The notes under the pieces were generated by a model. That model saw nothing but the letters and a program-made list of their open reading frames with translations. It was not told the DNA's origin and did no database searches. A DNA stretch of 35,290 nucleotides from a virus. The position numbers and the translations under genes were made by a program. The DNA lies in the IMG/VR virus record IMGVR_UViG_3300042866_001908, positions 1 through 35,290 of that record, one strand, 5' to 3'. Shown in pieces: positions 7,881-35,290 of the stretch. Each line of letters opens with the position of its first letter. Position 1 is the stretch's first letter.

Positions 7881-8446
7881 TTTGCCGCCGCCCTTCTGGC
7901 TCTTACCTTCTCAATCGCCAGTATCTCCCCTTCCGAAAGCAGATCCACGCTGCACCCCTTCTGCATGGCGAAGGCCACGTGGTACCAGTACGCCTGCCCC
8001 ACGGGTAGATTCCAGGCCGTCTCCGCGCTCCAGCCGGTGGATCCACAGATCCCGCTCACAATCGCCAGCGCCCACGGCAAGCCCACCGGTTCCCTGCTAC
8101 CCGGGCTGCGCTTCTGCTCCTCCCGCCACAGTTGCGGCAGGGCGTTAAAATCCTCCAGGTAGGCGCGGAACTTTGCCGTCTCAACCAAAAATTTACAGCT
8201 CCACGTCCGCATCCAGTCTAGCACCAGCCGGCGGCCGGATAGGTCGGGCAACTGCGGGAACGGCGTGGTGCATACCGCCACGGCCAGCCGCAAATCCTTG
8301 GCCGTGGGAAAGCAGCCGCCCAGAAAATATGGGCTGCCGGCAATCTCCAAATTAAGCAGGTGCCAGAGAGACAACGGCCGCAGCCGCCGGCGCAGGACGA
8401 CGTGGTCGTCCCGGTTGAGGAAACTTTCGGCGAAAAGGCGGTTCAC
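7877..8446 (-). CDS. Putative tail assembly chaperone (189 aa)
   Basis: A 189-residue, Trp-rich, mostly helical protein encoded between the putative tail tube and the tape measure, where tail assembly chaperones lie in siphophages. The C-terminal part (WNLPVGQAYWYHVAFAMQKG) resembles the W..p....w.y..a segment seen in several chaperone families. It starts with GTG at 8446-8444, directly at the foot of a perfect 8-bp hairpin and with no free Shine-Dalgarno sequence, so translation is probably weak. I saw no programmed frameshift signal of the lambda G/GT type. The call rests mainly on position. Confidence 0.55.
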   Translation of the reverse strand: MNRLFAESFLNRDDHVVLRRRLRPLSLWHLLNLEIAGSPYFLGGCFPTAKDLRLAVAVCTTPFPQLPDLSGRRLVLDWMRTWSCKFLVETAKFRAYLEDFNALPQLWREEQKRSPGSREPVGLPWALAIVSGICGSTGWSAETAWNLPVGQAYWYHVAFAMQKGCSVDLLSEGEILAIEKVRARRAAAK

Positions 8447-9809: not shown

Positions 9810-10364
9810 TTATGTCAAAGTGACAAGCCAACAGGATTCTCCGGCTTCAACTTGGCCAAAGATTTCAGTCACAGCCAGATCCACGCCCGGCCAGCCGGCC
9901 CCAAAGTCATGGCCGGCCAAAATCCCGCCTCGTCTCACCTTGGGGCGCCAAGCCAGGATGTCCGCCCTGACGGGCTCGTACTCATGTGCGGCATCAATAA
10001 AAACCGCGTCTAGGCTTCCATCGGCAAACAGGTCGGCGGCCTGCAGGCTGGGCATTTTCAGCGGGGTCAGCCGCTCGGCCACGGGCGCCACATTGCTCAT
10101 GAAGTTTTCAAACAAAGTGCCGCATTGCACGCACGGATGATCGGCGTGCTCCGGACTCCCCTCCCAAGTATCCACGGCAAAAACCTCGATTTTTGGGCTG
10201 TGGTTATAGGCTTCCACCAAAAGGAAAGCCGTGGAGCGCCCGCGCCAGCAGCCCACCTCAACAAGTTTCCCGTCCGGCCGGCAGTTGCGAACCATCCGGC
10301 GGTAAATGCCCTCACCACTGAACCAGTTCTCTCCAAACTGCGGGCCGTTATGGATGTGATTCAT
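9810..10364 (-). CDS. Class I SAM-dependent methyltransferase (184 aa)
   Basis: The true start is ATG 10364-10362, which overlaps the stop of the upstream glycosyltransferase gene as ATGA. The longer upstream frame is only that gene's shadow. Seen in the 184 residues: motif I EVGCWRGRS (36-44), the acidic residue ending strand 2 (VFAVD, D65), VFIDAAHEYEPVRADI (121-136) and GGILAGHDF (147-154). This is the pattern of the Methyltransf_24/TylF-like group, which often O-methylates sugars. Translation is coupled to two glycosyltransferase genes, so the likely substrate is a glycan built by them, on the virion or on the host surface. It has no features of a DNA methyltransferase (no DPPY or NPPF). 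Confidence 0.82.
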   Translation of the reverse strand: MNHIHNGPQFGENWFSGEGIYRRMVRNCRPDGKLVEVGCWRGRSTAFLLVEAYNHSPKIEVFAVDTWEGSPEHADHPCVQCGTLFENFMSNVAPVAERLTPLKMPSLQAADLFADGSLDAVFIDAAHEYEPVRADILAWRPKVRRGGILAGHDFGAGWPGVDLAVTEIFGQVEAGESCWLVTLT

Positions 10365-11035
10365 GTCAGAATCCATCTTTCGGTTTTGTTTTTTCCGTCG
10401 GCCACGCGGGTCGCGTGGTGGTTTTCCCGGTGGAAATCCTCGCTGGGGCAGAAAGCCCCGCGGGTGGCGCCGATGTTTTGGATCCGGCTGACGCGGGGAA
10501 ACATCTCTCCCATGCCCAGGTTGTCCCGGATCCGCTGCACCCCGCCGTCCCAGAAAGACGTGTCCCATGCCGGCAAAAGATATTTTTCCCAGTGCTCCCG
10601 CCAGGTGGCCCAGCCCCAAGGGGTGAACCATTTACGCCAGGCGGCCATGTTGGGCGCGGCTTCGCCGCCGTGCTGGTTGTAGCCGGAGACGGTCAGCGTC
10701 ATCGGGCTGGCGTTCCGGCCGGCCCACTCAAACCAGCGCAGTGCATCCGGGCTGGGGACGGTGTCGTCCTCCAAATGAATGTGGTAATCGGAAGCCTTAA
10801 AGCCCAGCTCCATGCAGTGCCGGATGGTGGCTCCGCAGCCGTAATGGGAGGGCAAAAGGCAAACTTGCACACCACGCTGGTGGGCGATGTGAGCGATATC
10901 TTCCGTCAGCTCGTGGGGATCTAAAACCGCGGTGACGATGTATTCCCCGACCCCGTCACACCAGGCCAAGGCATCCAGCACCCTAGCAAAATAGTCCGGC
11001 CTGCGGTGGGCCGAAACCGTCAGCGTCCTAGTCAT
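10361..11035 (-). CDS. Glycosyltransferase, GT-A type (224 aa)
   Basis: A 224-residue protein opening MTRTLTVSAHRRPDYFARVL, the nucleotide-sugar-binding strand and helix of a GT-A fold (TVS.HRRP). At 87-91 is HLEDD, the metal-binding acidic motif, and at 140-145 is WGWATW, a motif seen in bacterial glycosyltransferases related to the GNT-I group. It overlaps the upstream large glycosyltransferase gene and the downstream methyltransferase gene by ATGA on both sides. Sugar donor and acceptor cannot be read from the sequence. The context (between capsid and connector genes) suggests modification of a virion protein or of the host envelope during infection. Confidence 0.82.
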   Translation of the reverse strand: MTRTLTVSAHRRPDYFARVLDALAWCDGVGEYIVTAVLDPHELTEDIAHIAHQRGVQVCLLPSHYGCGATIRHCMELGFKASDYHIHLEDDTVPSPDALRWFEWAGRNASPMTLTVSGYNQHGGEAAPNMAAWRKWFTPWGWATWREHWEKYLLPAWDTSFWDGGVQRIRDNLGMGEMFPRVSRIQNIGATRGAFCPSEDFHRENHHATRVADGKNKTERWILT

Positions 11036-13179
11036 CCCTTCAGCAGATTGTAGGCAGCAAGGTTTCCGCCCGTGCCCTTGTTGTTCTGCAGGGCATCCTC
11101 GCCCAGCCCTTCCGGCCGGATCCGGATGCCGTTGGTTCGGTTAAAGTCCGGCGTGGCGCAGACCAGGGTTTTTGTGCCTAGCTCCCGCAGGCGGTAGGAC
11201 ATCACAAAATCGTCCGCCATGAACCGCGCTCGGCCCTTGTCGTCCAGCTGGGCAAACTCCTTGGGCGTCAGGCTGGGGAACTTGGCCATGTCGGGCATGT
11301 CCTTAAGCCGGCAGGCAATCGCCCCAAAGCCCTCCAGAATCTCCGCGTGGCCGAGGTGGTCGGGTGCGATGGCGTAGCCCTTGGGCCCGGTCATAAAAAA
11401 GCCGCACAGGCCCAAGGCCGACTTGTCGGGGCAATTTTCCACCAGCGTCTGCACCATCCGCGGGCTGTAAAGGATGTCGTCATCGCACCAGACGATAAAA
11501 TCGTCCGGCGTGCCGGATTCGTCCGCCGCCCAGGCCGCTCCAATAAATTTTGTGGCCGGGCCGTGATCGTGCGTGCGGGCAATATGGATTCGCCCGTCAT
11601 CCGCCAGCTTTTGTAGGGCGGGCGGGATTTCCGGGAACTGCTCGCCGGTGCGGGCCAACTTCTCCGGTACTGATAAAATTATTTCATCCGCTGGCATGGA
11701 CTGCGCCAGCAGGCTCTCGATCGTGGGCAGGACGGTGTGTATCCGTTTCGGGGTAGTGGTCAGGCCAATCACGACCCGGCTTTTTTTGTCGATAGGGCTG
11801 GGCAACCGCTCCGCCCCGGGGGGCACGGTGCCATCCTCCAGCAGGGCCGCATCCCACATCAGCGGCGGGATGGGCGTCTCCGCCTCCGCCTTCACGGTCA
11901 GCAGAATATGGCCCAGTGCCTTTTCGATTGCCTCGGTGGCATCCTTGACGATATTGAGCCGCTTGGCTCCGGGGTCATCCGTCGTCGGCGTGATGAACAG
12001 GTGCTGGATCCCCGCCGGATTGTCCGAGGTATCCATAAACAGCTTGTGGGCGCGGACGCAGTGCGCCAGTTCCCCGGCGTAGATGATGGTGATTTTTCCC
12101 CAGGCGGCGCGGAACGCCTCCCGCTCGCAGCGATCCGCGTCCTCTTTTTGTCCGGCCGCCCGGAGGCATTGCGACAAAAGCATCTTGGGCAGGTGGCCGT
12201 ACCACTTGGCGTCTAGGTTCCAGATGACGCCGGCCGGGCGTGGCAGGCTGTCCACCACCTGCAGCAGGCGGCTGGCCTCGTGCAGGTTCCCCTCATCCAT
12301 CAGCTGGCAGGCCAGATGGCCGTGCGCTTCCTTGCGGGTGGGATGCAGGGTGATGGCTTGGCCAAAGTATTTGCGCTTCTTGTCCGGGGCGGCGCACATC
12401 ACGCCCGCCATGCACAGCAGCTGGTAGCGCTCCGTGGCGCCCACGTCCGGGTGTTCCAGCGCCAGCAGGCACGGGCCGATGGCTTTCTGGTACTGCCCGC
12501 GCAGAAAATCCTCCATGGCGATGTAGTACCAGTTCATCCCGGCTCCCTCGGTCTCGGCCGCCAGGATGCGCTTGTTGCGCTCTCCGCTGCCGGTCTTGTT
12601 GGTCTTGGGCACGTGGGTGATGCACAGGCCGTCGGCCAGGCCCACGGCCGCCTTCTCGTCCGGCTTGACCCGCTCATGGATGGCCCGCTCCCAGTGGGCC
12701 GGCAGGGTGCCATCTGCCTTGCGGCGAAAAACCCGTTCCCGGCGGTTGTCCCGCATGCCGCTGTTCTGCACGTCGTACCGGGTCACCAAGACGTCCCAGC
12801 CCTCCGCCTGCTTGTCTCGCTCCTCAATCACGCCGCGGTGCAGTGCGGCTTGGTTACCCAGAAACAGATCGTCGCAGTCCGCCCAGATGACGTACTTGCC
12901 CTGGGCCAGGCTGAACGCCTGGTTGCGGGCGGCGGCAAAATTATCAATATGCGGCCAGCCGGAATTTTCCGGTGCGTTGTGATAGACGGCAAACGTGCCG
13001 GCATCGCCGGCGGCGTCCTCCACGGCTTTCTTAAGATCGTCATGCTGCTGGGATCCGGTGGCGGCCACCACAATGACCTCGTCCCACAGGCCTTTGGCCG
13101 ATTGAATGAGCCGAAAAAGAATCTCGCCCTCCGCCGGGCCGGCGATAAGGGCGAGAGACACAAGGGGGGTGTTTTTCAT
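11032..13179 (-). CDS. Two-domain glycosyltransferase with central TPR-like region (715 aa)
   Basis: The start is most likely ATG 13179-13177 (MKNTPLVSLA). The longer frame would begin inside a hairpin that follows the capsid gene. Residues 1-220 form a GT2-like domain with VSLALIAGPAEGEILFRLI, a repeated (V/I)IVVAATGS strand and an acidic motif WADCDD (99-104). Residues from about 225 to 420 contain helical, TPR-like repeats. From about 468 a second GT-A-like domain begins (RVVIGLTTTPKRI), with WCDDD at 564-568 as its metal-binding motif. Two catalytic domains joined by TPRs resemble polymerising or protein-directed glycosyltransferases. The stop is coupled to the next glycosyltransferase gene. 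The target is unknown. No Shine-Dalgarno sequence is evident, so expression may be low. Confidence 0.8.
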   Translation of the reverse strand: MKNTPLVSLALIAGPAEGEILFRLIQSAKGLWDEVIVVAATGSQQHDDLKKAVEDAAGDAGTFAVYHNAPENSGWPHIDNFAAARNQAFSLAQGKYVIWADCDDLFLGNQAALHRGVIEERDKQAEGWDVLVTRYDVQNSGMRDNRRERVFRRKADGTLPAHWERAIHERVKPDEKAAVGLADGLCITHVPKTNKTGSGERNKRILAAETEGAGMNWYYIAMEDFLRGQYQKAIGPCLLALEHPDVGATERYQLLCMAGVMCAAPDKKRKYFGQAITLHPTRKEAHGHLACQLMDEGNLHEASRLLQVVDSLPRPAGVIWNLDAKWYGHLPKMLLSQCLRAAGQKEDADRCEREAFRAAWGKITIIYAGELAHCVRAHKLFMDTSDNPAGIQHLFITPTTDDPGAKRLNIVKDATEAIEKALGHILLTVKAEAETPIPPLMWDAALLEDGTVPPGAERLPSPIDKKSRVVIGLTTTPKRIHTVLPTIESLLAQSMPADEIILSVPEKLARTGEQFPEIPPALQKLADDGRIHIARTHDHGPATKFIGAAWAADESGTPDDFIVWCDDDILYSPRMVQTLVENCPDKSALGLCGFFMTGPKGYAIAPDHLGHAEILEGFGAIACRLKDMPDMAKFPSLTPKEFAQLDDKGRARFMADDFVMSYRLRELGTKTLVCATPDFNRTNGIRIRPEGLGEDALQNNKGTGGNLAAYNLLKG

Positions 13180-13194
13180 TTTTTTAGAGAGGAA

Positions 13195-13224
13195 GGCCGG
13201 CCGCACCCCCCGATGCGGCCGGCC
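13195..13224 (-). terminator. Strong 11-bp hairpin after the major capsid gene
   Basis: The arms GGCCGGCCGCA and TGCGGCCGGCC are perfectly complementary around an 8-base loop, 20 bases after the capsid stop. On the transcribed strand the stem is followed by TTCCTCTCT rather than a pure U-tract, so termination may be partial. Such an element would give much more capsid mRNA than mRNA for the following glycosyltransferase cassette, or would protect the capsid message from 3' decay. Confidence 0.75.
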
Positions 13225-13243
13225 CACCAGTTGGGAGTAACCC

Positions 13244-14122
13244 TTAGACGATACGAGTCAGCGAGCTGGTCTGGCCGCGGGCCACGCCGTAGATGAGGGC
13301 GTAGGTCCGCTGATGGCTGCCGAGCTTCACGTCGTAGAACTCGCGCACCTGGAGCGACAGGCCGCTCTTGGGCTCGGTCACGTTGGTGATGTCGCCCGGG
13401 ACGCTCACGCCTTCCGGCAGGGCCGGGAGACGGGCGGCCACGACGAGCGCTTCCCGCTGGGCCACGAAGCCCTTGGAAGCGGCCGAAGGCAGGCCGGTGT
13501 AGTTGTAGCACTCCACGCCCGCCACCGTGCCGATTTGGCCGGAGGCCACCACGTCGCCGCTGCGCTGCGCGTTGGCGGTGATGTTGGTGTCGTTGAGCAG
13601 GCTGGCGTAGTTGCCCGGGGACAGGACCGCAAAGCGGCCGCCCATGGGCACCTTGTTGTTGTCCAGGTTGAGGCCCAGGCTGACGACGCCGCGGAACGTC
13701 AGCGCGTCCGCCGCGATGGAGAGCGTGCTGCTGTAGTGGGTAGTGACGAGGGCGAGAACGGAATCCACCATGCTCTTGCCGATCGCGTGCGCGGCCTGTT
13801 CGGCGAAGCGCTCAATCAGGTTGATGGAGCTGGAGGTCCGTTCGTCGTCGTTGATCGCGTACGAGACGTGCTTGAAGTTGCTGAGCGCGATAGAGACGTC
13901 TGCCTGCGTGGCGGCCGAGGCAACGTAGCCGTCGGTGGCGCTGTAGTCCGAAGCGGACTGCACGGAGACGATGTGGGTGACGATGCTGTCGCCCTTCCGC
14001 GCCTGGGCGTCGGAGAAGTCCGTCACCGCGTTGCGGATGAATCCGTAATTTTCAACGAGCAATTCGAGGGCGCGCTGGGCGACCACTTTGCCGTTGGACG
14101 TTGTGCCGAGTGAGTTAGGCAT
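13244..14122 (-). CDS. Major capsid protein, HK97-like fold (292 aa)
   Basis: A 292-residue protein directly downstream of the protease-scaffold gene, preceded by AAAGGAC as a good ribosome site. The sequence begins MPNSLGTTSNGKVVAQRALELL. It then has IRNAVTDFSDAQARKGDSIVTH, where a GD...V element is typical of capsid N-arm regions of the P22/GP5-like branch. The C-terminal half is Gly/Val-rich beta sequence ending in a strand with YALIYGVARG. Codon use here is strongly C- or G-ending, fitting high expression. The hairpin after the stop and the position after prohead protease support the call. I cannot name the exact capsid subfamily. Confidence 0.82.
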   Translation of the reverse strand: MPNSLGTTSNGKVVAQRALELLVENYGFIRNAVTDFSDAQARKGDSIVTHIVSVQSASDYSATDGYVASAATQADVSIALSNFKHVSYAINDDERTSSSINLIERFAEQAAHAIGKSMVDSVLALVTTHYSSTLSIAADALTFRGVVSLGLNLDNNKVPMGGRFAVLSPGNYASLLNDTNITANAQRSGDVVASGQIGTVAGVECYNYTGLPSAASKGFVAQREALVVAARLPALPEGVSVPGDITNVTEPKSGLSLQVREFYDVKLGSHQRTYALIYGVARGQTSSLTRIV

Positions 14123-26448: not shown

Positions 26449-26494
26449 AGGCGCGCTTGGCCAGAGCGGCCGCAAGATACTCAGAAGCGGTCAT
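26159..26494 (-). CDS. AlpA/excisionase-like HTH protein, antisense to int (111 aa)
   Basis: The ATG at 26494-26492 overlaps the stop of the ribbon-helix-helix gene (ATGA), so the two are co-translated. Residues 20-62, MKLKELAAAYGIAYGKMRRM followed by GFPIVLGVVVPGDFDRW, have the pattern of AlpA/MerR-like excisionases (la...gi....v.r......fP...g......d.W). An excisionase or transcription regulator role is likely. The C-terminal 45 residues overlap the integrase catalytic region on the other strand and look less protein-like. The total antisense overlap with int is 290 bp. Confidence 0.65.
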   Translation of the reverse strand: MTASEYLAAALAKRAFNQAMKLKELAAAYGIAYGKMRRMSLEPGFPIVLGVVVPGDFDRWRAEAAGRRPQIGANPLPRAGRTSHELALNRGLTAAWPHLLAHLPGADSTRA

Positions 26495-26667
26495 CGCACC
26501 GGCTCCATTTCGTCCGTGCTGGTTTCCTCAATCAGCTGGGCCACCAGCTGGGAAAGCGAAAGGTTTTTTTTCTCCGCCATCTCACGGCCCAGCTTTTTAA
26601 TGCGGACCGGCAGGTACAAATTTGTGACCTCAGCGCCGCTGTTTTTCGAGTGGAATCCGCGTGGCAT
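26491..26667 (-). CDS. Ribbon-helix-helix regulator A (58 aa), leaderless
   Basis: Residues 14-47 of the 58-residue product (VTNLYLPVRIKKLGREMAEK and NLSLSQLVAQLIEE) form a ribbon-helix-helix DNA-binding domain. It is related to regulator B, whose aligned core is TNLTLPKQIKSKGMELAKR and MSLSTYVAQLI. The frame could begin at 26697, but that ATG falls in the -35 box. ATG 26667 lies 6 bases after the -10 box, the same geometry as gene B, so I choose it. It is the first gene of the minus-strand transcript, followed by the AlpA-like gene. By analogy with Cro it may act as the lytic-side repressor; this is inference. Confidence 0.78.
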   Translation of the reverse strand: MPRGFHSKNSGAEVTNLYLPVRIKKLGREMAEKKNLSLSQLVAQLIEETSTDEMEPVR

Positions 26668-26668
26668 T

Positions 26669-26685
26669 TGCGTGGTATATGCGCA
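26669..26685. promoter_or_regulatory. Operator O1 (TGCG-N9-CGCA)
   Basis: TGCG-TGGTATATG-CGCA covers the -10 box and start region of promoter A. It overlaps operator O2 by six bases. The same dyad occurs twice more in this intergenic region. Confidence 0.7.
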
Positions 26686-26702
26686 CGAAACACGCATGTC
26701 CA
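26674..26702 (-). promoter_or_regulatory. Promoter A, driving RHH gene A leaderless
   Basis: The boxes are TGGACA (26702-26697) and TATACC (26679-26674), separated by 17 bases. The ATG of gene A begins 7 bases after the last -10 base, where transcription should start, so the mRNA would have no leader. No Shine-Dalgarno sequence is present, whereas most early genes of this phage have AGGAGG. Confidence 0.7.
26680..26696. promoter_or_regulatory. Operator O2 (TGCG-N9-CGCA)
   Basis: TGCG-CACGAAACA-CGCA is 17 bp and fills exactly the spacer between the -35 and -10 boxes of promoter A. A bound protein would block RNA polymerase. Confidence 0.72.
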
Positions 26703-26779: not shown

Positions 26780-26989
26780 ATGCTTAAGGTTCCCACTAAC
26801 CTTACATTGCCTAAGCAGATAAAATCTAAGGGCATGGAGCTTGCTAAGCGCGCAGGCATGAGCTTATCGACCTACGTGGCCCAGCTGATCATTAAGGAGG
26901 CAGCCAAGGATCAGGGTTTTATTGCCGAGAGCCCTGCGTTGTATGCGGTAGGACGGTCACGGGCAAAAACTAGGACAAAAGGGATATGA
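26780..26989 (+). CDS. Ribbon-helix-helix regulator B (69 aa), leaderless
   Basis: A 69-residue product with an N-terminal ribbon-helix-helix domain (VPTNLTLPKQIKSKGMELAK, then GMSLSTYVAQLI) and a basic C-terminal tail (RSRAKTRTKG). It is a paralogue of regulator A. ATG at 26780 is fixed by the promoter geometry. Its stop overlaps the next start (ATGA), forming an operon with a membrane protein and a small basic protein. It probably binds the TGCG-N9-CGCA sites and may be the lysogenic repressor, since no CI-like HTH repressor is found in the genome. It could alternatively be a plasmid-like copy or partition regulator. Confidence 0.78.
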   Translation: MLKVPTNLTLPKQIKSKGMELAKRAGMSLSTYVAQLIIKEAAKDQGFIAESPALYAVGRSRAKTRTKGI

Positions 26990-27222
26990 TTTTGGTTTCC
27001 GGATTGGGCGATTTGGCAATGGGCTTGGGTGGCACGGCTTTAGCTTTTGCCATCATCGTCCTGATTATTATGGCCATTTTTATGCCCTACTACGTTTACA
27101 AGTGCCGTCACCTTTTGCAGGATCTGCGAGGCAAGGCTGACGAGCAGCTGGTGGAGACACGCCGGACGAACATGCTTTTGCGTCAGCTTCTTAAAGCCTA
27201 CGGCCATCAACCCGAGGATTGA
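26986..27222 (+). CDS. Small membrane protein of the immunity operon (78 aa)
   Basis: Residues 10-38 of this 78-residue protein are a long hydrophobic segment (MGLGGTALAFAIIVLIIMAI, then FMPYYVY). A charged helix LLQDLRGKADEQLVETRRTN follows, probably a coiled coil in the cytoplasm. The start is coupled to regulator B by ATGA. Because it would be made together with the putative repressor, a lysogenic-conversion or superinfection-exclusion function is possible; this is inference. Confidence 0.65.
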   Translation: MILVSGLGDLAMGLGGTALAFAIIVLIIMAIFMPYYVYKCRHLLQDLRGKADEQLVETRRTNMLLRQLLKAYGHQPED

Positions 27223-27239
27223 CCCGCCTTTTTTGCGGG
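27223..27239. repeat. Short hairpin CCCGC/GCGGG with T-rich loop
   Basis: CCCGC (27223-27227) pairs with GCGGG (27235-27239) around a CTTTTTT loop, just after the stop of the membrane protein gene and before the GTG of the next gene. There is no U-tract after the stem, so it is not a standard terminator; it could affect translation of the next gene. Confidence 0.4.
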
Positions 27240-27251
27240 CAAGGATACCGC

Positions 27252-27425
27252 GTGCCCGCCAAGGTCATCTGTCCCACCTGCCAGCAGCCCGTCCCCCCGG
27301 AGCTGTTCTATCGCGCCCTCGGCCGGGTTAAGTCCAAGCGCAAGGCCAAGGCAGCGGCCCGAAACGCCCGCAAGGGCGGAGCCCCCAAGGGCAACACCAA
27401 CTGGAAGGGCCGGCTAAAGGACTAG
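27252..27425 (+). CDS. Small basic protein with CPTC knuckle (57 aa)
   Basis: I choose GTG at 27252, which has AAGGAT 6 bases upstream. A TTG at 27219 overlapping the previous stop is an alternative start, giving 68 residues. The product begins MPAKVICPTCQQPVPPEL, a half zinc knuckle. A very basic segment follows (KSKRKAKAAARNARKGGAPK) with KGNTNWKGRLK at the end, so nucleic-acid binding is likely. Its TAG stop shares the CTAG tetramer with the stop of the convergent minus-strand gene, leaving no room for a terminator. Confidence 0.6.
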   Translation: MPAKVICPTCQQPVPPELFYRALGRVKSKRKAKAAARNARKGGAPKGNTNWKGRLKD

Positions 27426-27691
27426 ATTTGCGTCGTCCAGGGGCCGAACAGGAAATAGCAAAGCAGCTTTTCCCCGTCCTCCGTCAGACGGTGGATCTCC
27501 TCGCCGTTCTCGGTTTCAATCGGATTCACCAGCTCGTAGAGGATGGCGACCTGCTCGTCGTGCGTGATGTCGTCGGGCAGGTACGACCACTTCAGCACGT
27601 AGTTGAGTACGTGCTGGAGCCTCTGCTGGGTCATGTTCCCGTAGCTCTGCGGGGTGGATGGTTGGATCAATTCCATGATGCGTTGCTTCAT
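27422..27691 (-). CDS. Small paralogue 3 of a three-gene array (89 aa)
   Basis: An 89-residue protein with an AGGAGG ribosome site. The core TQQRLQHVLNYVLKWSYLPD, then THDEQVAILYELVNPIETENGEE and HRLTEDGEKLLCYFLFG, aligns with the two genes upstream. The common pattern is L..VL..vL....lPd..t..e...v...L, a short variable loop, then h.LT..G..ll..L. It looks like a small winged-helix-like or purely structural fold ending in a strand-turn-helix. Function unknown. It is the last gene of the minus-strand chain and converges with the plus-strand operon. Confidence 0.65.
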   Translation of the reverse strand: MKQRIMELIQPSTPQSYGNMTQQRLQHVLNYVLKWSYLPDDITHDEQVAILYELVNPIETENGEEIHRLTEDGEKLLCYFLFGPWTTQI

Positions 27692-27957
27692 TTAACCGCC
27701 TCCTTCCGTTTGGTAGTTCGATTTGTATCCAGCTCCAGCAGCACCTCCTGACCCCGCCAGGTCAGGCAGTAGGTCGGGCAGCCAAAGCCGTTGCCGTGCG
27801 GCACGTGCATGACCAAGCTGCGCAGCACCAGACTGCGCTCCCGGATGGTCATAAACTCCGGCAACTCACGGCACACAAGGACATGGCTTAGAATCTCCCG
27901 GATCCGGCCAAGGTCCGCATGGCGGCGGCAGGAGCAGCGCCGGTCACCATTCCTCAT
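27688..27957 (-). CDS. Small paralogue 2 of a three-gene array (89 aa)
   Basis: An 89-residue protein with a basic, Cys-containing N-terminus (MRNGDRRCSCRRHADLG). The shared core follows: IREILSHVLVCRELPEFMTI, RSLVLRSLVMHVPHG, then YCLTWRGQEVLLEL. It overlaps paralogue 1 by 14 bases and paralogue 3 by 4 bases. The array probably arose by tandem duplication with strong divergence. No known family is recognised. Confidence 0.62.
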   Translation of the reverse strand: MRNGDRRCSCRRHADLGRIREILSHVLVCRELPEFMTIRERSLVLRSLVMHVPHGNGFGCPTYCLTWRGQEVLLELDTNRTTKRKEAVK

Positions 27958-28219
27958 GGCCGGCCTCCCACTGGCTTGCGCCCACGCTGGCCAGCAGGTC
28001 GTAGACCAGATGGCCCCGGACGCTCAGGTGGTAGGATTTCCGGCCGTCGTCTCCTTCGTATTCGTAGGCGAGGAGCCAGCGGATGATTTCCTTTTCGTGA
28101 TCCGGCGTTCCGTCCGGGATCTGATTGTTGACCAGAATCTCCCCCAACACTGCCAGGAGATGCCGATCGTCGATTCCACAGTAACCGATCTTAGGCTGTT
28201 CGATTTCTTGTGTTTTCAT
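27944..28219 (-). CDS. Small paralogue 1 of a three-gene array (91 aa), probably leaderless
   Basis: The 91-residue protein has the core DDRHLLAVLGEILVNNQIPD, HEKEIIRWLLAYEYEGDDGR and YHLSVRGHLVYDLLASVG, matching the next two genes. ATG 28219 lies 6 bases after a GATAAT -10 box and has no Shine-Dalgarno sequence, the same geometry as the two ribbon-helix-helix genes. It is therefore likely to head its own transcript. Role unknown; regulation by a dyad operator suggests expression in a particular phase, possibly lysogeny or early infection. Confidence 0.65.
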   Translation of the reverse strand: MKTQEIEQPKIGYCGIDDRHLLAVLGEILVNNQIPDGTPDHEKEIIRWLLAYEYEGDDGRKSYHLSVRGHLVYDLLASVGASQWEAGHEEW

Positions 28220-28225
28220 GGCGAC

Positions 28226-28254
28226 ATTATCAACCCAACTGATGGGTTAATTCA
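28226..28254 (-). promoter_or_regulatory. Promoter C with 17-bp dyad spacer
   Basis: The -10 box is GATAAT (28231-28226), 6 bases before the ATG. The 17 bases upstream are exactly the dyad AACCCA-N5-TGGGTT (28232-28248). The -35 position reads TGAATT, a poor match, so an activator may be needed. A TTGTGA lies three bases further upstream but at 20-base spacing. Confidence 0.5.
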
Positions 28255-28280
28255 CAAGAAATTTATACAATTTTGTGAAT
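28250..28280. promoter_or_regulatory. Inverted repeat ATTCACAA-N15-TTGTGAAT upstream of promoter C
   Basis: Perfect 8-base arms (28250-28257 and 28273-28280) enclose a 15-base AT-rich spacer directly upstream of promoter C. It may bind a regulator, perhaps an activator compensating for the weak -35 box. The binding protein is unknown. Confidence 0.5.
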
Positions 28281-28288
28281 ATACAGAG

Positions 28289-28316
28289 TAAAAACGTCCC
28301 AAACAGGACAGGCTTG
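28289..28316 (-). terminator. Weak terminator-like hairpin
   Basis: On the minus strand GTCCTGTTTGGGAC can form a 4-5-bp stem followed by GTTTTTAC. It lies after the stop of the 94-aa gene and could partly end the lysis-side transcript before the three-paralogue array. The stem is short, so confidence is low. Confidence 0.3.
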
Positions 28317-28336
28317 CGCGGATCTCCGCGGAGCTT

Positions 28337-28621
28337 TCAGGCGCTTTTTGCGCTCTTTTTTATTAGCCGATAGTGGGGACGCGGCCGCACGATCTGGCCC
28401 CACTGCACCTTGAAATCCCGCCGCTCCACCATCCCCACCTTGGCCATCTCCCGGCACTTTTGCATGGCCACCTCTTTGCAGTACCCCAGCTTTTCGGCGA
28501 TTTCTTCCGGGGTGTGCCACCCGGGCGGCACGGTCTCCACTTGGTTCTGGTTCACCTGCTTAAAGGCGGCACGCCAGGCGGCCGCTTGCAGATCCTCGGC
28601 CTTAAACTTCGGCGATTTCAT
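28337..28621 (-). CDS. Winged-helix DNA-binding protein (94 aa)
   Basis: A 94-residue basic protein. PPGWHTPEEIAEKLGYCKEV followed by QKCREMAKVGMVERRDFKVQ is a helix-turn-helix plus wing, typical of small winged-helix regulators (h.t..eia..lg......r.l..m...G.v). The C-terminus is Lys/Arg-rich. It overlaps the phosphoesterase gene by 20 bp. It could regulate promoter C, whose dyads lie just downstream; this is inference. Confidence 0.68.
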   Translation of the reverse strand: MKSPKFKAEDLQAAAWRAAFKQVNQNQVETVPPGWHTPEEIAEKLGYCKEVAMQKCREMAKVGMVERRDFKVQWGQIVRPRPHYRLIKKSAKSA

Positions 28622-29399
28622 CCTGATCGGGTGTGAATACGATTTCCGTCACTTCCGGCAGCTCTCCGTCCCGCTTGCGCCGCCAGTCCAGCACCATAGC
28701 GCTGGGCCTGGGGATTGCGTCCGGCACGACCTTCCGGCCGTAGCGGGTCAAAAACTGCCAGCCGCCGGTGACGCCAATCATCCCCTGCCCATCCGAGAAC
28801 CAGCCCCCGGTGTGCCGGTGCCCGCGGAGGTAGATCCGGGCCGGCTCCTGGCCACAGCGCATGCTGTTGAGGCGGGCGTTGCCCATGGTGATAGAGAGGC
28901 TGGTCGCCTCCAAGTAAGCGCGGCTGGTGACGCCGATATGGTGGGTGGCATCCACCAGACATCCGGCCATACGGAAAAGCCACTTGGCCTTCGCCCCCTT
29001 ACCCTCGGCCCCAATCTTCTTGGCGATGTAGTGCTCAATGAGGCCGGTATGCACTTCCGTGCCCAGAGTAACGAATGTCTTGTGGGCCTTGGCGGCCAGA
29101 CCGCCCACGGCCTCAATCGCCATGTTGGCGTGATCCTCGATCGATTGCGTAAGGCTTTCGATAGATTTGTGGTGGATGCCCTCGGTTAGGTCACCGTTGA
29201 GCAGTAGGGCGTACTTATCCTTCCCGCGGATCCGGGCAAACTGCGCTTGGAGGTCTGTCCAGCACGCCCACAGCCACTCCTGGTGCACGTTCCCGCCAAA
29301 GGAGATTTTGTTCCCGGTGCGGACGGTGGTGTCGGGCGGCATAAGCCCCACCTCGGATCCACAGTGCAGGTCACTGACGACCAGTAAAATGCGGGCCAT
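28602..29399 (-). CDS. Calcineurin-like metallophosphoesterase (265 aa)
   Basis: All main blocks of the calcineurin fold are visible in 265 residues: DLH (D10, H12), NGDLTEG (D70), LGTEVHTG (H117, in place of the usual GNHE/D), ATHHIG (H153, H154) and RGHRHTGG (H194, H196). Such enzymes hydrolyse phosphodiesters or phosphomonoesters using two metal ions; phage members include nucleases and cyclic-nucleotide phosphodiesterases. The changed GNH block makes the substrate uncertain. It is encoded in the lysis region, after a MazG-like gene. Confidence 0.83.
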   Translation of the reverse strand: MARILLVVSDLHCGSEVGLMPPDTTVRTGNKISFGGNVHQEWLWACWTDLQAQFARIRGKDKYALLLNGDLTEGIHHKSIESLTQSIEDHANMAIEAVGGLAAKAHKTFVTLGTEVHTGLIEHYIAKKIGAEGKGAKAKWLFRMAGCLVDATHHIGVTSRAYLEATSLSITMGNARLNSMRCGQEPARIYLRGHRHTGGWFSDGQGMIGVTGGWQFLTRYGRKVVPDAIPRPSAMVLDWRRKRDGELPEVTEIVFTPDQDEIAEV

Positions 29400-29435: not shown

Positions 29436-29777
29436 TTACTTTTTGTCCTCGTACCCGGGCATGCCTTGGAGGACTCGGAGGATTTTCACACAAGCCGCCC
29501 GGCTGTCGGCCGCCGCCACGGACGGATCCTCGGCTCCCTTAAGGGCGAGGTCGGCAATCACGGCCAGCTGCACTTTGTGGGTGTAAACGTAGCTGACCAG
29601 ATCCAGCACCTCGCTGATCGCATCGGCCCAGCATGGGCGCATCCAGAGGGCTCCGCCGTGCTCCGCTTGGCCTTTGCGGTACTTCTTGGAAAAGTCCCGG
29701 ACGAAGACTTCCAAGATGCTGGACAGGTGCAGCTCATGCTCCTTGGACATCGGGGGCGTGTTGTCCTGCGGCTTCAT
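29436..29777 (-). CDS. MazG-like helical phage protein (113 aa)
   Basis: A 113-residue helical protein. KKYRKGQAEHGGALWMRP followed by AISEVLDLVSYVYTH matches a conserved phage pattern (KY..Gq.EHGg.l......a..E..Dl..Yly) reminiscent of MazG-type nucleotide pyrophosphohydrolases, whose acidic ExxxD helix binds magnesium. Only one clear acidic helix pair is visible, so enzymatic activity is uncertain. It is coupled by ATGA to the endolysin gene. Confidence 0.55.
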   Translation of the reverse strand: MKPQDNTPPMSKEHELHLSSILEVFVRDFSKKYRKGQAEHGGALWMRPCWADAISEVLDLVSYVYTHKVQLAVIADLALKGAEDPSVAAADSRAACVKILRVLQGMPGYEDKK

Positions 29778-33614: not shown

Positions 33615-35290
33615 TTAAACGTCGCTGATCTCCCGCTCCACTTCAGGGGTGATGTTTACGGTAAAAGGCTTGGAGCTGTAGATTTTGCCTTGGTACACCC
33701 ATTCGATCTGGCCCACGGCGGGAACGGCATCACTGTTATCGTCCGTGCCGGCAAAGGCCACAAAGCGCTGCATGGCGTCATTATCGGCCCGGAACGTGAC
33801 TAGGTAGTAGGGATCCAACCCTCCAAAATCCGCCGCGGCAAAGGCGCTGGTTTCTAGGATCACGGCCTCACGGTTTGTCTTTTCCCGCACGGTCACCTTG
33901 AGCTGGGAGGGGGCCAGAGATAGCGATGCGCCGGAGGCATCAGCAAAAAATACCGCTAAGCTGTGATCATCCCCTTGGCGGATATTCAGCACGGCGCCAT
34001 TGGCGCGGCTGGTACTCACCTGTCGGGTGACGAGATTGACCTGCAGATCGGAAAGATCCCAGCGGGTATCCAGCCAGGCGAACTGCCGCTCCACCACCAC
34101 CAGCGTCTGGGTCACCGAGGTGGCGGCGGAGTAGGCGCCATTACCGGCCTGACTGGCCACAATGCTGCAGACGCCGGGGGTGACCGGAGTGCAGATGGAT
34201 CCGACCACAGATGCCACGCCAGCGGAGGTGCTGGTAAAGGTGACGGGAAGGCCGGAGCTGGCGGTAGCCACCAGCTGGAAAGATCCGGCCGCCCGGGCGT
34301 TGGCCTGGGCCAGCGTGGTGGCATCCGCAAATGAAAGGCTTGTCGTACTGGCGACCTGCAGGGCGCGTGTATATACGTCGTTCAAGTTGGCCACCTTGCG
34401 CGGAGCCAAGGCATCAAAGGAGATGGTCTGGGCGATCGGAGTGTTTACCACGGTGAGAACCTGGGTGACAGTGGTGGCGGCGTTATAGTTGGCATCCCCT
34501 GCCTGGGCGGCGGAAATGGTGGTGGAACCGGCAGCCACGGGCGTGATAAAGCTGCCGGTAACGGTGGCTACTGCCGTGTTCGAGGAGGACAGAGCCACGG
34601 TGAGATTGGAGCTGGCGGCCGGAAACACCTGAAACGCACCCGAACCGGCAAACTTGGTTGGCATGCTGGCAAACGTAATGGTCTGGCTGGCCTTGGAGAT
34701 GGTGACGACCCCCGCCGTGCTGCCGTAATAAAAATCATTAACCACGCTGGCAGAGACGACGTAAGAGCCTGCTGATACGGGCGCGGAAAGGCTGGCGGCC
34801 GTGCCGGTGTAGACGAGCTGGACGGTCAGGCCGGAGGGGGAGACGGTGGTGGTGGGGATCTTAGCCGTGCCGTCGTAGGTGAAGGTGAGGTTGGAAAGGG
34901 TGACGGTGGCCGGGGCGGAGGCGACGGAGTTGCGGATGGTGTAATTGTAGGTATCCGCCACAAAGACATTGCCGGCTGTGTCCACAGTGATGCCTTGCGG
35001 CAAGTAAAAACTGGCGTTGGAACCTAGTCCGTTATTGGCGCCAATGGCGCCGGATCCTGCCAATGTTGAGACTATACCCAAACTGGTTACCTTGCGAATC
35101 CTGTAACCATCCGCCACAAAAACATTGCCAGCCGTGTCCACGGAAACACCCTGCGGACCATTAAATCTGGCGGCAGTACCAGTTCCGTCGGAGCCGCCAG
35201 AATTACCAGCCAATCCGGCCAGCGTGGTCACCACACCAGCACTGGTGACTTTTCGAATGTTACGGTTTTCAAAGTCAGCCACAAAAACAT
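33615..35290 (-). CDS. NHL-repeat tail protein, remaining part (residues about 212-770)
   Basis: This is the rest of the gene that begins at 764-762; the last 127 bases here duplicate positions 1-127. It encodes the end of NHL unit 4 and units 5 and 6 (to about residue 335). An MBG-type module follows (TVTLSNLTFTYDGTAKIP, about 338-415), then two Ig-like segments with VVTVTQ/SVTQTL strands (about 416-600). The C-terminal domain has LNIRQGDDHSLAVFFAD (about 645-661), the QG.D element of two other tail genes. A propeller at the N-terminus and the virion-type module at the C-terminus is an unusual polarity. NHL and MBG modules are common in secreted bacterial proteins, so capture from a host is possible. 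Confidence 0.85.
   Translation of the reverse strand, partial: VFVADFENRNIRKVTSAGVVTTLAGLAGNSGGSDGTGTAARFNGPQGVSVDTAGNVFVADGYRIRKVTSLGIVSTLAGSGAIGANNGLGSNASFYLPQGITVDTAGNVFVADTYNYTIRNSVASAPATVTLSNLTFTYDGTAKIPTTTVSPSGLTVQLVYTGTAASLSAPVSAGSYVVSASVVNDFYYGSTAGVVTISKASQTITFASMPTKFAGSGAFQVFPAASSNLTVALSSSNTAVATVTGSFITPVAAGSTTISAAQAGDANYNAATTVTQVLTVVNTPIAQTISFDALAPRKVANLNDVYTRALQVASTTSLSFADATTLAQANARAAGSFQLVATASSGLPVTFTSTSAGVASVVGSICTPVTPGVCSIVASQAGNGAYSAATSVTQTLVVVERQFAWLDTRWDLSDLQVNLVTRQVSTSRANGAVLNIRQGDDHSLAVFFADASGASLSLAPSQLKVTVREKTNREAVILETSAFAAADFGGLDPYYLVTFRADNDAMQRFVAFAGTDDNSDAVPAVGQIEWVYQGKIYSSKPFTVNITPEVEREISDV
35164..35290. repeat. Terminal direct repeat, right copy
   Basis: This is an exact copy of positions 1-127. 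It should be removed once when the genome is circularised. The NHL-repeat tail gene entering here continues at position 127 and below. Confidence 0.93.

Follow-up and report, generated by a model that had tools for sequence, protein, structure and literature searches.

What do three small, overlapping genes packed side by side on the minus strand of a phage genome encode, and do they act as one set? The window studied here is the entire IMG/VR virus record IMGVR_UViG_3300042866_001908 (35,290 nucleotides), in which an initial sequence-only reading had described an array of three divergent small paralogues of 89-91 codons. The open reading frames are present at the positions claimed (91, 89 and 89 aa), with overlaps of 14 nt between A and B and 4 nt between B and C. 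The array is real but the unit is larger: a fourth gene, Z, convergent with C such that their stop codons overlap, belongs to it too (its GTG start was inferred from an orthologue alignment). The four genes are:

27944..28219, minus strand: gene A, 91 aa, acidic (pI 4.8), predicted winged-helix-like
27688..27957, minus strand: gene B, 89 aa, basic (pI 9.8), more variable than A and C, with GGGAGG upstream of its ATG
27422..27691, minus strand: gene C, 89 aa, acidic (pI 4.7), better conserved than A and B, with AAGGAGG upstream of its ATG
27252..27425, plus strand: gene Z, 57 aa, with one CxxC and a basic C-terminal half

Orthologue sets for A, B and C were drawn from six IMG/VR contigs and then aligned. 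Profile-profile comparison by hhalign, which had been proposed as a check on the trio, relates all three pairs in a single common register, with P-values of 9.3e-5 (A-B), 2.2e-5 (B-C) and 0.0066 (A-C). Column-shuffled profiles equalled the observed score in none of 200 cases for A-B and for B-C, and in one of 200 for A-C. HMMs built from single sets were used to scan 14,382 stop-to-stop ORFs of the window and 85 loci; up to E = 1 each recovered its own set and nothing else but the remaining two paralogues, the best cross-paralogue match having an E-value of 3.7e-5. These three tests agree and, taken together, place the homology of the trio beyond chance: judged by their profiles, A, B and C are diverged paralogues of one family, as had been claimed. 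The A-C link is weak by itself, the connection running mainly via B. The adjacent winged-helix gene (28337-28621), a negative control, shows no profile relation to the trio (P 0.26 and 0.49), and the idea that the three genes arose as duplicates of it was rejected.

The sequence-only reading recognised no family for these proteins, and this holds in the libraries searched: A, B, C and Z gave nothing above cut-off against Pfam, PHROGs, NCBIfam and PADLOC, and the trio is a protein family with no significant match there. None of the four reached the cut-off of an HTH family that would mark an Aca-type autoregulator. The curated cut-offs of PadR, MarR and HTH_45 were likewise not reached: A and C have no Pfam match, and HTH_45, a winged-helix family, matches two of the six B orthologues weakly and below cut-off (E 0.068). 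Also below cut-off is a match of A to phrog_9455, a PHROG with function unassigned (E 0.0014-0.0016 over 24 residues). Isolated phages gave no match for B, C or Z, and matched A at E 4-6 only; plasmids gave none for C, a PDB sequence search returned only weak matches, and no host genome bearing the cassette was found. Two hits were set aside as chance: that of the C profile to a designed TIM barrel (PDB, E 3e-5), in which no stretch passes alone, and the sole match in genome_contigs (L017), a 23-residue stretch within a 385-aa alphaproteobacterial protein.

Structure prediction, also proposed earlier as a way to see whether the three share one fold, gave one topology for A and C, while B is placed by its profile. 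The AF2 model of A, for which only A orthologues were used, has a pLDDT of 82.8, one of five models (the best) being confident, and shows the elements H18-31, H40-50, E51-55, E61-65 and H67-88. That of C, built on an alignment of all three paralogues, has a pLDDT of 80.4, with core residues 21-80 at about 90 or higher, and shows H22-35, H44-50, E55-59, E65-69 and H71-82. The H-H-b-b-H order is identical in the two, with the register offset constant at 4. All 50 VIA matches listed for A are MarR, PadR or other winged-helix DNA-binding or regulator proteins, among them MexR (Z 8.9, 2.5 A over 75 residues), Sso10a-2 (Z 8.3) and STIV F93 (Z 7.7); for C, 49 of the 50 are regulators or winged-helix DNA-binding proteins, with a top Z of 7.2. 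For small domains, Z scores of 7-9 rank as middling; the Foldseek E-values are poor, with no PDB match at E < 0.001. The best match in a BFVD fold search, a 67-aa protein of Caulobacter phage CcrColossus (E 0.078, probability 0.99, 2.3 A), is suggestive only.

In the models only about 8 residues, with a conserved LP, separate helix 1 from helix 3, so that helix 2 is missing. Given the middling structural scores, A and C are best described as winged-helix-like on the basis of their models, of the MarR/PadR/Sso10a type minus helix 2; the profile similarity and the weak HTH_45 match suggest that B belongs with them. The PadR/MarR regulators (e.g. MexR 3ech and BC4206 4esb), the best structural matches for A and C, share with the trio helix 1, helix 3, the two-stranded wing, the C-terminal helix and a Y-x-L-T-x-x-G motif. 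The trio differs from them in the replacement of helix 2 by the LP-containing segment, in having no Pfam PadR/MarR match and in the acidic character of A and C. Sso10a (Pfam HTH_45) and F93 of STIV, from archaea and an archaeal virus, are also of about 90 aa and combine a winged helix with a C-terminal helix, but they show no significant sequence relation to the trio and are single-copy DNA-binding proteins, whereas the trio members are oppositely charged.

The trio and Z travel together. All four genes are found in seven records (the window and six from IMG/VR), each with three trio copies in the same order, and a scan of IMG/VR with the Z profile returned the same six contigs as the trio and no others. 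A scan with the 113-aa neighbour gene (29436-29777) found 80 loci of the wider phage group, and the trio was not found in 75 records of these relatives, searched whole. Single absences are weak evidence since many records are fragments, full-length ones being more telling, and the collection scans rely on short peptide patterns, which remote relatives would escape. Copy number, for which a comparison across related prophages had been suggested, does not vary: a record has either all three genes or none of them. The block and its flanks are:

27229..28364: the whole accessory cassette, about 1136 bp (1.13 kb), containing A, B, C and Z and present or absent as a block
28337..28621, minus strand: upstream winged-helix gene, MarR_2-like (Pfam E 0.0035, below cut-off), not of the trio family
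26986..27222, plus strand: small membrane-type gene of 78 aa on the other flank

The bounds are given by a natural empty site in the phage L041. Relative to the cassette-bearing L002, it shows 94.6% identity up to its position 8404 and 96.7% from 8392 onward, and L002 holds 1127 extra bases between these matching flanks. Projected on the window, the alignments stop at 28365 and resume at 27228, such that the flanks meet with a 13-bp alignment overlap; the 78-aa gene is retained. On the left, the boundary immediately follows the codons of a conserved HYRL in the winged-helix gene, which is the anchor where the cassette begins and is also found in cassette-free phages. Further pairs with and without the cassette have the same slot (L047 versus L045/L046; L006 versus L037). 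Elsewhere the slot holds other cargo, whose features were judged by eye: 154-aa and 96-aa proteins, apparently secreted (L039, L040), or one of 136 aa that seems to include a membrane segment (L048). The cassette thus comes or goes as a whole in phages that are nearly the same elsewhere and, given that flanks 95-97% identical join directly in L041, counts as accessory ("moron") cargo; other phages fill this slot differently. The moron status proposed at first is borne out by both the empty site and the different cargo, and the natural lack in L041 suggests that the cassette is dispensable for phage growth.

The host is probably a member of Verrucomicrobiota: the best match of TerL is Akkermansia phage Moulinsart and the highest listed portal bit score is that of verrucophage P8625, the assignment being kept at probable because the identities are 25-31%. 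The presence of an integrase gene (by Pfam) suggests a temperate phage. A divergent RHH pair (26491-26697, minus strand, and 26780-26989, plus strand), with Arc-like PHROG matches at E 0.0039 and 0.017, is conserved beside the integrase in relatives and is likely the immunity switch. The trio had been placed beside an immunity operon: it does adjoin two divergent Arc-like genes and the integrase, but the repressor role is putative and the "operon" is a divergent pair.

The stretch of 117 bp upstream of A is AT-rich, with 43% GC versus 60% for the genome, and contains the following elements:

28251..28279: 29-bp dyad TTCACAA-N15-TTGTGAA upstream of A, a candidate operator
28232..28248, minus strand: second dyad AACCCA-N5-TGGGTT, read from the sequence, just upstream of the -10-like element
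28226..28231, minus strand: -10-like GATAAT, ending 6 nt before the ATG of A
28295..28310, minus strand: conserved imperfect dyad (G/C)TCCT-N4-(A/G)GGAC, followed in the window by T5 and terminator-like

The 29-bp dyad has no second match in the window, and none arose in 100 shuffles; its arms are kept in five of six relatives, one arm being broken in L004. In the second dyad the right arm is well conserved across relatives and the left one imperfect, while GATAAT is conserved in all six aligned relatives. When upstream sequences were compared, a Shine-Dalgarno sequence was present for B and C and none before A; together with the 6-nt distance of GATAAT from the ATG, this suggests an mRNA that is leaderless at A. 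The cassette had been credited with its own regulated promoter. A promoter region with a unique dyad is present, but a sigma-70 consensus scan calls no promoter upstream of A, and a promoter of the cassette's own is best treated as putative. An intrinsic terminator at 28310-28295 was rejected: its T run is not conserved in relatives and the element was taken as a dyad.

Pairwise dN/dS values by NG86 are 0.00-0.13 for C, 0.09-0.36 for A and 0.04-0.38 for B, ratios that are approximate because several of the dS values lie above 1, at saturation. By this measure purifying selection acts on each of the three, and on C above all; the C proteins of the window and L001 are identical at a dS of 0.42. 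The B of L001 (1844-2089) has 48% identity to that of the window, versus 91% for A and 100% for C, a divergence suggesting that the middle gene has recombined or diversified.

The net charge at pH 7 is -9 for A, +6.8 for B and -7.2 for C, with signs kept across all orthologues; across the relatives the pI of A and C is about 4.5-5.7 and that of B 9.6-10.5. Read from the sequence, helix 3 carries -1 in A, +2 in B and -3 in C, the N-terminal 20 residues of B amount to +5, and the wing and helix 3 of A and C are negative. The trio is hydrophilic overall and no transmembrane segment is evident.

The computed basis of any interpretation is thus the paralogy, the predicted fold shared by A and C, the cassette bounds, the purifying selection, the charge split, the conserved dyads and the gene overlaps. 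It leads to a tentative proposal, the one that we favor: a mobile moron cassette of a presumably temperate phage, whose charge-split, hetero-oligomeric winged-helix trio modulates transcription and is autoregulated. Three paralogous mini winged-helix proteins would be co-translated from a locally regulated, apparently leaderless promoter. The strict co-inheritance (all three trio genes in 7 of 7 records, never one or two), the gene overlaps and the opposite charges together argue that the proteins act jointly, we think as a hetero-oligomer whose subunits would pair via the wing and the C-terminal helix, as in PadR/Sso10a-type proteins. The basic B would supply the surface contacting nucleic acid, possibly DNA, or another target, with the acidic A and C as partner subunits modulating it; in these two, the absence of helix 2 and the acidic helix 3 and wing disfavor DNA binding. 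The complex might modulate transcription in an infected cell or a lysogen or, alternatively, act on a host or rival-phage factor. One member of the trio may repress the cassette's own dyad promoter; B is probably not the reader of the 29-bp dyad, since the arms are unchanged in L001 despite its diverged B. A narrower formulation, in which a helix-2-less trio of acidic, basic and acidic winged-helix proteins forms a heterotrimeric regulator or decoy, always paired with the convergent CxxC protein, and represents an undescribed family, is one we regard as possible rather than likely.

The main rival, close behind the hetero-oligomer and not separated from it by any result here, is an anti-defence operon of the acr-aca type, which we consider possible though less so: A and B, and perhaps Z, would inhibit host immunity as duplicated inhibitors diverged to different targets, with C acting as a repressor via the inverted repeat in the promoter. 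Published operons of this type encode an HTH autoregulator, with inverted repeats lying within their core promoter (PMC9410906). The anatomy here fits, with small genes in a moron slot, patchily distributed, behind a promoter of their own, although that core promoter is putative; two dyads lie upstream of A. The conservation gradient, with C well below the upper dN/dS values of A and B, suits this reading, and uncharacterised Acr paralogues within one viral genome are on record (PMC11065993). However, C is acidic and its model has no complete helix-turn-helix, unlike Aca; PADLOC, Pfam and NCBIfam yielded no match, including to any known Acr or Aca; and no HTH autoregulator was recognised. Moreover, the inhibitor and regulator of acr-aca operons are unrelated, whereas here all are paralogues of one family.

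An unlikely alternative is superinfection exclusion or prophage immunity, in which the proteins halt related phages after entry, for example if they poison phage repressors or activators that work as dimers, in the way that Id proteins act on bHLH dimers. A winged helix that is truncated but retains its dimer helix could give rise to such dead heterodimers, and the accessory, single-block distribution would suit this role. So would the location beside the Arc-like pair and the integrase, which recalls the immI region of P22 with arc, mnt and sieA, where accessory genes likewise adjoin a pair of Arc-like RHH proteins. Unlike immI, the trio includes no membrane protein, and the two are not known to be related in sequence; a membrane mechanism is improbable given the hydrophilic trio with no evident transmembrane segment. 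Profile comparison also fails to connect the trio with the winged-helix gene that this phage carries itself.

Three separate homodimeric regulators, neighbors by chance and each with its own DNA site, are less probable still. Winged-helix homologues are mostly homodimeric regulators and duplication followed by divergence is common, but this reading runs against the opposite charges, the overlapping genes, the all-or-none co-inheritance, the acidic helix 3 of A and C and the single matching dyad in the genome. That the genes are degenerate leftovers or spurious ORFs with no functional set, as their small size and want of a recognised domain might suggest, is hardly credible: the selection test contradicts it, dN/dS being well below 1 for all three across many pairs, with C unchanged between the window and L001, and the trio is intact in all seven records.

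Accessory genes at such positions have yielded many anti-defence, immunity and host-takeover functions, and phages of the likely host phylum, Verrucomicrobiota, are poorly covered in this respect. As the cassette is precisely bounded, strongly selected and absent from a phage with near-identical flanks, its function is testable in a near-isogenic pair. Moron cassettes and small winged-helix proteins are known in kind; for a three-paralogue, charge-split and helix-2-less version we found no description. If the trio indeed forms a charge-split complex, it would illustrate an unusual route of labor division among duplicated winged-helix proteins.

Other parts of the window merit mention. The 113-aa protein (29436-29777, minus strand) has weak Pfam/PHROG matches only and is 55-98% identical in the 80 phage loci, its most constant part being a KYRKGQAEHGG motif. 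The gene after it comes in two quite different versions at the same position (28602-29399 in the window, 6342-7079 in L006 and 7361-8098 in L037): a metallophosphoesterase-like protein of 265 aa (window, L040, L041) and one of 245 aa (L005, L006, L037). At 33615-35282 (minus strand) a 555-aa protein combines NHL beta-propeller repeats with an MBG domain and is probably a tail or adhesin protein. Finally, the region 9810-13227 (minus strand) encodes a Glycos_transf_2 protein of 731 aa, a GNT-I-like protein and a Methyltransf_24 protein, placed between a structural gene (13244-14122) and the genes after it, and these might perhaps act in virion glycosylation.
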